From Armatimonadota bacterium (GTDB taxonomy: Bacteria; Armatimonadota; Zipacnadia; Zipacnadales; VGFC01), in NCBI GenBank assembly GCA_016869045.1, contig VGFC01000015.1:1-38984 (forward strand): DNA of 38,984 nt. Reading direction: 5' to 3'. This document shows, one piece after another, positions 28,152-32,764 of this stretch. Each line of letters begins with the position of its first letter. Position 1 is the stretch's first letter. The notes beneath the pieces were generated by a model, which was given only the letters and a program-made list of their open reading frames with translations, was not told the DNA's origin and made no database searches. A program made the position numbers and the translations under genes.

Positions 28152-28967
28152 TCAGTATGACGGAGCCCCGCTGTTCCAGCCCGTCTGCCCCGGCCAGACG
28201 CGCCAGGCTTCCTCGGGCGGCGTCGTGCTCGTGTCGCCGCTGCGGAAGAGGGCCTCGTCCATCTGCTCCACCCGTCCATCGTAGAACAGCACCAGGTACT
28301 GTGATCGGCCGCCCTTGGTGATGGTCTTGCGATGGAACGGGCAGTAGGTCAGCACCGTCGTGTCATCCGGCTGATACAGCGTTCCCTGACCATCCTTGGG
28401 AACGCGGTCCGCATCCCGATCCCCCGCCGCGACTCCGCGCCGTGACAGGTAGCGGAAGGCCGGGATGGTGGTCGCGGTGATCGCGTCCGGGTCGATCCAC
28501 TGGTAACTCAGCGGGTCCTCGGCGTCATACGGCACCGGCGCATCGATCGTGAAGTCGCCCGGGCCGTACCCGGGCGGGTAGTCGCGCTCGTCCATCGGGC
28601 ACTCCAGCACCCGCTCGGACCGGATGTACCCCAGGTCCTTCAGCGCCAGCAGGCTGCGACCGTGGATCGTGTTGGTAGCCGGCGTGAAGAAGTACGGCGG
28701 GAAGCCGCCCTCATCCAGCCGGTACATCCTCAGGGCTTGCTGGATCTTGTGCATGTTGCTCTCGCACCCCATCAGGCGGTTCCCCGCCTGCAGGCGCAAC
28801 CCGATCGGCACCGTGATCGCGAGCAGGATCACGATGATGCCGATCACCACCAGAAGCTCGATGAGGGTGAAGGCACGGAAATTAGGGACAGGCCCCAATT
28901 TCCGATATGACGTCCATCGGAAATTGGGGCCTGTCCCTAATTTCCGTGCCACTGTCCCGGTGGTCAT
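28152..28967 (-). CDS. Prepilin whose leader is encoded by a palindromic repeat
   Basis: A 271-residue prepilin. The mature N-terminus FTLIELLVVIGIIVILLAIT has Phe +1 and Glu +5. Then come the pilin helix, GCESNMHKIQQALRMYRLDE and FPPYF, common in short prepilins of this kind, and a late GRSQYLVLFYDGRVEQMD with the usual DG. The leader is 32 residues and odd: residues 7-32 are translated from a 79-base inverted repeat, giving RKLGTGPNF and again RKLGPVPNF. The residue at -1 is Ala (FRA/FTLIE) instead of Gly. ATG 28967 has GAGGG 9 bases upstream and is 17 bases after the PilV-like stop. No start codon in this frame lies between the repeat and Phe +1, so translation must pass through it. Prepilin peptidase may process Ala -1 poorly; the gene could be weakened or specially controlled. 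Confidence 0.82.
   Translation of the reverse strand: MTTGTVARKLGTGPNFRWTSYRKLGPVPNFRAFTLIELLVVIGIIVILLAITVPIGLRLQAGNRLMGCESNMHKIQQALRMYRLDEGGFPPYFFTPATNTIHGRSLLALKDLGYIRSERVLECPMDERDYPPGYGPGDFTIDAPVPYDAEDPLSYQWIDPDAITATTIPAFRYLSRRGVAAGDRDADRVPKDGQGTLYQPDDTTVLTYCPFHRKTITKGGRSQYLVLFYDGRVEQMDEALFRSGDTSTTPPEEAWRVWPGQTGWNSGAPSY
28872..28950. repeat. Perfect 35-bp inverted repeat (REP-pair/BIME-like element)
   Basis: Arms 28872-28906 and 28916-28950 are exact reverse complements around a 9-base centre. Each arm holds its own smaller hairpin, GGAAATT ... AATTTCC with GGG and CCC inside, so the unit is two inverted REP-like hairpins. From memory it resembles REP sequences moved by RAYT (Y1) transposases in many genomes. 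It sits inside the prepilin leader, ending at the codon before Phe +1. Confidence 0.9.
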
Positions 28968-28984
28968 TCCTTGCATCCCTCGAT

Positions 28985-30805
28985 CTACGGCCGGCTGACG
29001 GTCGCGCGCGGTTCTCTGGTCAGGCTCGGCTCGAGCTGTGCCGCCAGCAGGCCCTCGACGCTTGTCGTGCGGAGTCGCCCGCGGTCCAGCCATGTCGCGA
29101 AGGCTCTGACCGACACCCCGCTCACGGAGATGATCCGCGCGGCCGGCTGCGAGCCCGAGACGTCCGGGTCATCCACGGTCACCGTCGCCGGCGATTGCGT
29201 CCCCAGCGTGTGCACTTCGACGAAGCGCTGCTGGTCGCGGCCCACGTATTCCACCCTTACCGTCTGCGAGAGGCAGCAGTCCGGCAGCTTGAGGATCGGG
29301 CTCGTTGGGTCATACGTCGTGCCGTCGCGGCTGGGGAAGTACCAGCGTCCGATCGCCCATCCGGGCACGGGCTGCGCGGGAGACTGCCCGCTCCAGATGT
29401 CCTCGGTGAAGGAGGCCGGCGCGCGCTGAAGCTGCACCGTCTCCCGCGCGAGCGTTCGGTAGTAGAACAGCAGCTCGCGCCCTGCGGCCGGCGATCCGCT
29501 CGGGAACGAGATGCGCCCCTCGTCCCAACCCGGGACCACCTCGCCGTCCGCCGGGTAGTCCACCGTGAGTGTCCCGTCCGCATCGGTGTAGATGTCGCCG
29601 CTTTCCGCGTCTACTGCGAAGACGTGCGTCTGGTCGTACGGCGCCGTCAGTGGCGCGCCGCTCAGGTCCACCGAGAAGAGGGGAACCGCGTCCTCGAGCT
29701 TCCGGTGATCGAGGGCCACCTCGTAGACGCCCGCCGTCGGGTCGGACGGCTGGTCGGGCACGCGGTGCCGCTCCACGATCAGCGGGATGCGCCGCCCGAT
29801 GTCCGGGTCGGTTGGGTCGGCCGGGTTGGCGTACGTCCGGAGGCGGTAGCCGACGCACAGCGTCTTGCCCTGCTCGGAGGCGTTGAACCACAGCGCGTGC
29901 CCGTACCGCTGGTCAACCGCCGCGATCGGCGGGTTCGCCGTCGGCACCGGCGTGCCCAGGTAGTTCTGCACGTTGTAGGGCGACCGGAGGAAGGCGGTCA
30001 CCGAATCGGGCACGATTCCGCCGCCCGCCGTCACGCCGTTCAGGACGCTGCTCGTCCACAGGCCGTTGAGCGCCCCGCTCGGCTGGCAGAGCACGCTCTC
30101 GCCCTGAATCCAGTGCTCTTGCCCGGCCCCATCGACCCACGCATAGGCCACTTCCACCACCGCGCCACCCAACACGGGCAACACCGCGGGGGTGAACGGA
30201 TTCCCTTGCGGGTCCCTCTCCGGCGGCACGAAGCGAAGCGCGCCGCTCGTTTGCGCATAGAACGTCCCGGGCAGCGGCGTGACGACCGTACTCGGATCGA
30301 TGTCGTCGTCTCGCGTCAAGGGGATCGGCTGGTATACCCACCACACCAGCTCCGCGGGCCCGGCCTTCAGGAAGTACGGAGCCTGCGGGTCGGGAGCATC
30401 GGGGCCCGGCGCCGGGACGCGGAACGTCTCTCCCAGCACCAACAGCGTGTTCTCGACCGTGTTCAGCGGGCGGGCCTGATCGTCCCAGTTCGGCTCGTCC
30501 GCAGCGTTGTAGACGGGAGGGAGGCCCTCGGCCAGGCCGTATATGTTACCCAGGCCGACCAGCGCAGGATCATAGGCCGCGACCTGCACGGGCAGCCACT
30601 CGGCCCCGGCGCGGGCGTTCTCCGCGTGCTGCTCGGCCATGCGCGCCATCTGGTCGCGCAGGCGCTCGCCGCGCATGATCTCAGTCAGCTTCGGGAACTT
30701 GGCGGCCACGACCCAGATCCCCACCAGCAGCACGAGCATCGCCACGAGGAGTTCGGGCATACTGGCGCCGCTTCTGGCTCTCAGGCCCACTTGCGTTCTC
30801 GCCAC
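28985..30805 (-). CDS. PilV-like large minor prepilin
   Basis: A 606-residue protein. The leader VARTQVGLRARSG is 13 residues long. It is followed by ASMPELLVAMLVLLVGIWVV, with Gly -1 and Glu +5; Ala rather than Phe at +1 is a less usual residue that minor pilins tolerate. A polar helix follows (LTEIMRGERLRDQMARMAEQ), then a long beta-rich secreted part with Pro/Thr/Asp-rich sequence and several Tyr/Trp. The position after the short prepilin (31689) and before the PilW- and PilX-like genes suggests a PilV-type minor pilin, though known PilV has about 180 residues. GTG 30805 is chosen for the GGAGGGAG site 5 bases upstream; the frame extends to 30835 without a good site. Confidence 0.8.
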   Translation of the reverse strand: MARTQVGLRARSGASMPELLVAMLVLLVGIWVVAAKFPKLTEIMRGERLRDQMARMAEQHAENARAGAEWLPVQVAAYDPALVGLGNIYGLAEGLPPVYNAADEPNWDDQARPLNTVENTLLVLGETFRVPAPGPDAPDPQAPYFLKAGPAELVWWVYQPIPLTRDDDIDPSTVVTPLPGTFYAQTSGALRFVPPERDPQGNPFTPAVLPVLGGAVVEVAYAWVDGAGQEHWIQGESVLCQPSGALNGLWTSSVLNGVTAGGGIVPDSVTAFLRSPYNVQNYLGTPVPTANPPIAAVDQRYGHALWFNASEQGKTLCVGYRLRTYANPADPTDPDIGRRIPLIVERHRVPDQPSDPTAGVYEVALDHRKLEDAVPLFSVDLSGAPLTAPYDQTHVFAVDAESGDIYTDADGTLTVDYPADGEVVPGWDEGRISFPSGSPAAGRELLFYYRTLARETVQLQRAPASFTEDIWSGQSPAQPVPGWAIGRWYFPSRDGTTYDPTSPILKLPDCCLSQTVRVEYVGRDQQRFVEVHTLGTQSPATVTVDDPDVSGSQPAARIISVSGVSVRAFATWLDRGRLRTTSVEGLLAAQLEPSLTREPRATVSRP

Positions 30806-30810
30806 GGCAA

Positions 30811-30818
30811 CTCCCTCC
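30811..30818 (-). promoter_or_regulatory. Ribosome-binding site setting the PilV-like GTG start
   Basis: GGAGGGAG, 5 bases before the GTG at 30805. The upstream ATG at 30835 has no comparable site. Confidence 0.6.
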
Positions 30819-30891
30819 GGAGCTATGCTGCCCATGTCGGCGTCACGCCCAAACCGGGTTTACACAAACGTTGCGGGAGGGCAAGCGGAGA

Positions 30892-31843: not shown

Positions 31844-32764
31844 CTACGGGAGGTGGTACAACTGCGCGATGAAGCTCGCGATTGGGTCCTTCCAGAAGAG
31901 CATGATGATCCCGCACACGGCCATCATCGGGCCGAAGGGGATCTGGTCTCTCCGCGACCGAATCCGCAGGGCAATCAGCAGGATGCCCACGGCGGCTCCC
32001 AGCACGATGGACAGCAGCGTGTACGCGAGGAAGACGTAGCCTCCCCCGAGCACCGCACCCATCGCGCCGGCGAGTTTCACATCACCGCCGCCCATGGCTT
32101 CCTTCCGGAAGACCTTGCTCGCCGCCCACGAGATCAGCAGGAAGAGCCCGGCGCCCACCAGCATCCCCACCACCGAACGTGGCAGGTACACCCAGTGGAT
32201 GGGGCTCGTCAGGGCATCGACGCTGGTCGGCGGAGCCCCCAGAGGCAAGGGGAAGACCTCCTGGAACCGCACCGCAGTGTTGTGCCAGCCCCGCGTCGCG
32301 AGCAGGTAGGCGTCCAGCGACAGCCCGCAGATGAGGATGATCGCGTTGAGACCATCGGGGATGATGAGGTACCGCAGGTCGATGAAGAAGATCACGATGA
32401 GGGAGCAGCTGACGACGATGGTGACGGCTGCCTCCGGGGTCGGCCCGAAGACGATGACGGAGGCCAGGAAGATCGTGCCCGTGAGCGCCTCGACGAACGG
32501 GTACTGCCAGCTATAGCGATGCCCGCAGTAGCGGCAGCGGAAGCGGAAGATCAGCGCGCTCAGGACGGGAATGAGGTCGATGAAGCCGAGCTGGTGGCCG
32601 CAGCTGCCGCACCGCGAGGGCGGCGAGATGATCGACTCGGCCTCGGGCAAACGGAAGATGCAGACATTCAGGAAGCTGCCGACGACCGAACCGATGGCGA
32701 ACAGCAACACCATGAGGAGCGGGTAGTCGGTGATCGGGCCGGGGGGCATGAGAAGCGCGGACAC
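31844..32764 (-). CDS. pilD: Prepilin peptidase / N-methyltransferase
   Basis: PilD is the inner-membrane aspartyl protease that cuts prepilin leaders and methylates the new N-terminus. The 306 residues include the N-terminal GSVVGSFLNVCIFRLP, a zinc site of four cysteines (Cys52, Cys55, Cys77, Cys80: CGSC and CRYC), the first catalytic Asp in FFIDLRYLIIPD (Asp129) and the second in GGGDVKLAGAMG (Asp228). About eight hydrophobic segments are present. GTG 32764 is used; ATG 32749 is an alternative that removes five residues. The gene ends in three consecutive in-frame TAG codons. It stands between the miniature PilC and the prepilin genes it would process. Confidence 0.96.
   Translation of the reverse strand: MSALLMPPGPITDYPLLMVLLFAIGSVVGSFLNVCIFRLPEAESIISPPSRCGSCGHQLGFIDLIPVLSALIFRFRCRYCGHRYSWQYPFVEALTGTIFLASVIVFGPTPEAAVTIVVSCSLIVIFFIDLRYLIIPDGLNAIILICGLSLDAYLLATRGWHNTAVRFQEVFPLPLGAPPTSVDALTSPIHWVYLPRSVVGMLVGAGLFLLISWAASKVFRKEAMGGGDVKLAGAMGAVLGGGYVFLAYTLLSIVLGAAVGILLIALRIRSRRDQIPFGPMMAVCGIIMLFWKDPIASFIAQLYHLP

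Follow-up and report, generated by a model that had tools for sequence, protein, structure and literature searches.

A REPIN-like palindrome read in frame through a prepilin leader, and copies of its family in other predicted export signals of an Armatimonadota genome

How does a type IV prepilin come to carry a long perfect palindrome in its leader, and does the repeat do anything for the gene that holds it? The question is posed by a gene for a 271-aa protein (28152..28967, minus strand) in the window, here meaning the entire 38,984-nucleotide stretch of DNA that was analysed. The gene is recognized as a prepilin gene by its open reading frame and start context, by matches above cut-off to the N_methyl model PF07963 (25.7 bits, cut-off 21.2) and to TIGR02532 (20.8, cut-off 16.3), and by full-length homologs within the order at about 35-43% identity. 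The start with the best fit is the ATG at 28967 on the minus strand, with GAGGG ~9 nt upstream; a second in-frame ATG at 28976 is an alternative. The frame reads MTTGTVARKLGTGPNFRWTSYRKLGPVPNFRA/FTLIELLVV (the slash marks the predicted cleavage site), giving a leader of 32 residues (M1 to Ala -1, 28872..28967, minus strand) followed by the Phe +1 codon at 28869-28871. The upstream gene (616 aa; 28985..30835, minus strand) yielded no match in Pfam and NCBIfam scans, and its TAG stop (28987-28985) falls 34 nt before the palindrome. A probable prepilin peptidase gene, named from the CxxC and GGGD motifs of its sequence, occupies 31844..32764 on the minus strand.

The palindrome itself (28872..28950) is 79 nt long and consists of two 35-nt arms (28872..28906 and 28916..28950) that are 100% complementary and separated by a 9-nt spacer. 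It codes for residues ~6-32 of the prepilin, and its last codon, GCC (Ala -1), abuts Phe +1; since there are no start codons between the palindrome and Phe +1, the reading frame must enter via the palindrome. As RNA, the 79 nt are predicted to form a hairpin of 36 bp with a folding energy of -71.8 kcal/mol (z -15.3 versus dinucleotide shuffles) that begins ~17 nt past the A of the likely start codon. An earlier sequence-only reading of the locus had described a perfect inverted repeat translated in frame up to Ala -1 and a very stable stem soon after the start, and both descriptions are borne out.

The same reading proposed that the repeat had turned the usual Gly -1 into Ala. Ala -1 is real and is unusual within this genome, in which Gly -1 was found in 28 of 28 other prepilin N-termini matched (a sample biased to top scorers). 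The protein has the N-methylation domain, Phe +1 and Glu +5 (FTLIE) of a type IV prepilin but not Gly -1; this alone does not exclude it from the class, since three orthologs (L023, L026, L030) natively have Ala -1. On account of the same three orthologs, the claim that the repeat made Ala -1 was dropped as unproven; the residue may or may not stem from the insertion. Among relatives, this element is missing from the leaders of ~30 prepilin homologs, almost all of which have Gly -1, so that the element-free leader anticipated earlier does occur; it is seen only at ~40% protein identity, the contig of the sister species (G001) ending inside the upstream neighbour gene. The palindrome looks like an addition between an apparent original short leader (MTTGTVAR) and Phe +1. 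The suggestion that a mobile repeat was adopted as a leader survives as regards the mobile family, described below, and needs modifying as regards the leader, which the repeat did not create.

The repeat belongs to a large family. A 17-nt arm pattern gave 83+84 matches in the genome versus 1+2 for a control pattern, and the fetched loci contain at least 69 elements, so that the palindrome copy number is far beyond chance and the expectation of other genomic copies of a REP-pair-like repeat was correct. A 55-nt core is common to most copies (48 of them in the first set), and a shorter class is missing 9 central nt; because the central difference is 9 nt, both size classes are equal in length modulo 3. 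The arms have in turn the form of a REP (GGAAATTRGGG-loop-CCC.AATTTCC), and the element is therefore a head-to-head REP pair, REPIN-like in the sense of PMC3116915, with two inverted REP units able to form a single hairpin and at least 69 copies dispersed in one genome. The arms covary within copies: at variable stem positions agreement is 0.86-1.0 between the arms of one copy versus 0.30-0.91 between copies, and central loop positions are asymmetric in the palindrome copies. Two 93%-identical copies of a phosphodiesterase gene, which may be paralogs or a strain mixture in the metagenome-assembled genome (MAG), carry the element at the same site (L049:1555-1625 and L153:277-347), and these two elements are distinguished by a change that is matched in the two arms.

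Two further features of the stems were noted. The outer 3 nt vary between copies yet are self-complementary within a copy (e.g., L072, L063, L042:12557), and in a few copies inverted symmetry extends 5-6 nt further into the flanks than expected. These features may result from foldback copying, from correction of one arm by the other or from insertion at sites that were already small palindromes.

The family is narrowly distributed. Copies were found in only one of the 60 relatives searched, the sister species G001 of the same genus, where they are ~75-86% identical where full length, and the core pattern matched a single contig among named genomes (VGFB01000224, an Armatimonadetes MAG of the sister species). 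The search for a RAYT (Y1) transposase that had been proposed returned one gene (L042:1088-1942, minus strand), with E 1e-18 against the REP_Tyr_transpos model, below the curated cut-off. Palindrome copies adjoin it at both ends, one overlapping its 3' end (1213-1285) and the other 23 nt upstream of its start (1966-2036). This resident RAYT-type Y1 transposase (C183) probably moves the palindrome in trans. The 3' copy has TTGGGG in place of TTAGGG, and the RAYT frame consequently reads through it instead of stopping at its TAG.

The placement of copies was assessed with genes called by codon usage, using a score that the fetched loci served to train, and the counts are accordingly approximate. 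About 48 of the 69 copies lie between genes or at gene ends, as is characteristic of REPINs, and the majority adjoin gene 3' ends. At some 33 gene ends the stop codon is a TAG that belongs to the element (in GAAATTAG), and other genes end a few nt ahead of the element. At some convergent gene pairs (e.g., L067, L069, L074) the entire spacer is the element, its two TAGs serving as both stops. The remaining copies (~21 of 69, ~30%) lie in frame inside genes, 12 in protein bodies and 9 in export signals. All of these except one (L149) share the frame encoding the basic peptide KLGTGPNFR..RKLGPVPNF, and the consensus element has stops in the remaining frames. The duplicated RKLG..PNF remarked on earlier in the prepilin leader is present and is simply this common frame. 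Such use of one conserved open frame in unrelated genes is also the mark of the Rickettsia palindromic elements.

The hosts of the twelve protein-body copies include a type I phosphodiesterase (two gene copies), a DNA methylase, a Y-family polymerase, a DUF5693 protein, a radical SAM protein, a glycyl-radical enzyme, a GDSL hydrolase, an ABC-transporter-like protein (Walker motif by eye) and three others. Some Pfam domain matches continue across the insert, among them those to DUF5693 (2e-140) and PFL-like (2e-139). In the polymerase the insert occupies the same site in this genome and in G001 (L053:4738-4803 and L156:2533-2599), where it shows 73% DNA identity, remains in frame and has paired arms; given the shared site, this in-frame insertion outlived the species split. 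Together, the twelve copies show that the element's frame is tolerated.

All copies were also inspected for an open frame that begins at a start upstream, passes through the element and continues into a gene without a usable later start. Nine such N-terminal copies were found, in the prepilin and at L056, L061, L062, L063, L072, L075, L083 and L085, and all nine lie in export-like leaders, one prepilin and eight Sec-type signal peptides, with signal peptides and gene starts assigned by visual inspection and simple rules. A rough rule of the same kind classes 21% of genes as having export-like N-termini, and nine out of nine is therefore unlikely by chance (0.21^9, ~1e-6, with starts predicted and the rule crude). 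In each leader the element begins 3.7-8.7 codons past the start, just ahead of the hydrophobic stretch, and thus sits between the start or n-region and the hydrophobic core. When the flanks are joined without the element, ordinary leaders result (e.g., MKSLHRT/VFLLAACALAS and MRSCKKT/VLALLLAASAQ, the slash marking the junction). In the sister species, the orthologs of L056, L062 and L075 lack the element and begin with what look like signal peptides, that of L056 at 83% identity and with the same ATGAGCTGTAG start/stop overlap with the upstream gene. The element-free count comprises these three; L061 was unaligned over the leader, and L063, whose G001 ortholog agrees with the element-free state in a poor alignment, was left out together with L085, for which the comparison was ambiguous.

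A second repeat occupies the same prepilin leader elsewhere. In two genomes of another genus (L142 in G004 and L143 in G028), this leader holds an unrelated palindrome, AGTCGGGCTGGAAGCCCGACCTACG, whose reverse complement starts with CGTAG, as in GTAG REPs, and which has 139 and 138 matches in the two genomes versus none for the control. Three members of that genus (G022, G018, G025) have no GTAG-type repeat in the prepilin leader. Unrelated repeats appear to have entered the same prepilin leader independently.

The locus is probably explained by a selfish REPIN-like element that inserted in frame in a normal prepilin leader and survives because the n-regions of export signals tolerate basic residues that are later discarded. 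A RAYT-associated REPIN of this kind would settle close to gene ends and, where the next gene starts nearby, could fall into the N-terminus of that gene. Here the palindrome would have inserted between the n-region and the cleavage site, adding, once translated (through its hairpin), ~26 residues of basic sequence. Prepilin peptidase would cut off the leader, element included, after Ala -1, leaving the mature pilin unchanged, and signal peptidase would do the same for the Sec-type leaders. The extra basic, hydrophilic residues would be tolerated in the n-region and then discarded, allowing the insertion to survive with a near-neutral effect. Translation through the hairpin, cleavage after Ala -1, transposition by the RAYT and near-neutrality are all inferred steps; the stable hairpin could block translation of the prepilin, and Ala -1 might slow its processing.

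Adoption rather than tolerance would mean that the element-encoded KLGTGPNFRHDVRRKLGPVPNF provides a useful basic n-region and that positive selection favoured it in some genes. A positively charged N-terminus is required of Sec and prepilin leaders, the element contributes a basic peptide, every N-terminal case is an export signal, and the short n-regions of L083 and L085 have a net charge of 0 without the element. Against this, most of the nine leaders already have a basic n-region without the element, the sister-species orthologs function without it, and the twelve protein-body copies are tolerated without any such role. Adoption is possible for some genes, if unlikely, and is unneeded to explain the pattern.

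Alternatively, the element might be untranslated 5' sequence, with the prepilin starting at a TTG in arm 2 (MGPVPNFRA/FTLIELL) and the repeat working as an mRNA element, as gene-adjacent REPs often may. An in-frame TTG does lie inside the element, and many N-terminal REPs have been cautioned to be extragenic, with mis-annotated starts (PMC3733652). That TTG, however, lies within the stem and has no spaced ribosome-binding site, in-frame upstream ATGs are present in all nine cases, some with good Shine-Dalgarno sites, and the sister-species ortholog of L056 retains its upstream ATG overlapping the end of the upstream gene, all of which makes an untranslated element quite improbable.

On/off control of one pilin, whether by a stem that blocks translation, by slow cleavage at Ala -1 or by loss of the element through slippage, draws on the very stable hairpin just past the start and on the rarity of Ala -1 in this genome, but the switch and slippage idea found no support beyond the hairpin itself, the length classes of the family differ only by a frame-neutral 9 nt, Ala -1 is native in three orthologs, and nothing about the element is pilin-specific because eight unrelated signal peptides and the bodies of twelve proteins contain it as well. 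This proposal is rejected as very improbable.

Insertion and tolerance of a selfish element, the reading preferred here, have a wider implication. The persistence of some in-frame palindromic insertions had lacked a clear reason, and a rule is now visible in one genome, where every in-frame copy found at an N-terminus lies in a cleavable export leader, in which positive charge is wanted and the residues are thrown away. Tentatively, and with the balance still tilting somewhat against so broad a statement, export-signal n-regions may be a general preferred refuge for in-frame REP/REPIN insertions, such that one selfish family has come to supply numerous exported proteins with their n-regions and the same leader is entered by unrelated families in different lineages, as in G004 and G028. 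The pattern connects selfish DNA with the evolution of signal peptides in a way open to direct testing, and it cautions annotators that long odd leaders or REPs at gene starts are not errors by default. The literature searches made for this analysis returned no report of one repeat family repeatedly occupying export-signal n-regions, and a search on prepilin processing at Ala -1 yielded nothing specific.

Several known systems resemble this family in part. REPs and REPINs with their RAYTs (Bertels & Rainey 2011, PMC3116915; Nunvar et al. 2010, PMC2817692) share the inverted REP pair forming a hairpin and the tens of dispersed, mostly intergenic copies with one RAYT-type gene adjoining copies; they differ in that the present family is new in sequence and found in Armatimonadota, with ~30% of its copies in frame in genes and nine in export leaders. 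The GTAG and CGTC REPs and TIR repeats (Di Nocera et al. 2013, PMC3733652) are similar in their head-to-head dimers, their intragenic copies and their placement at gene 3' ends, where some donate TAG stops, and the element TAG as stop codon and the GACGTC centre recur here; the minority variant GGGGACAG fits the TIR motif GGGGWSAS. Armatimonadota are absent from the phyla listed in that study. Filing the family as a CGTC REP was considered, and the fit is mixed: the GACGTC centre and 5-nt loop agree with the published description (CGTC tag, 8-9 bp stem, 4-5 nt loop, CCA tail; PMC3733652), but the REP stems here are 11 bp, there is no CCA tail, and the transposase gene is flanked by copies, an arrangement that the study did not find for CGTC repeats. 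Intragenic REPs and Rickettsia palindromic elements are themselves established (PMC3733652), and the latter (PMC10969869, PMC3733652), compared by description, are likewise in-frame palindromic repeats in many unrelated genes with one open frame and a conserved peptide; the present family differs in its free-living lineage, its REPIN/RAYT setting and its repeated position in cleavable export leaders. Finally, the enterobacterial RU elements in genes (Delihas 2007, PMC2759123) represent an isolated case, compared with nine cases here from one family at one leader position, at least three of them with element-free orthologs.
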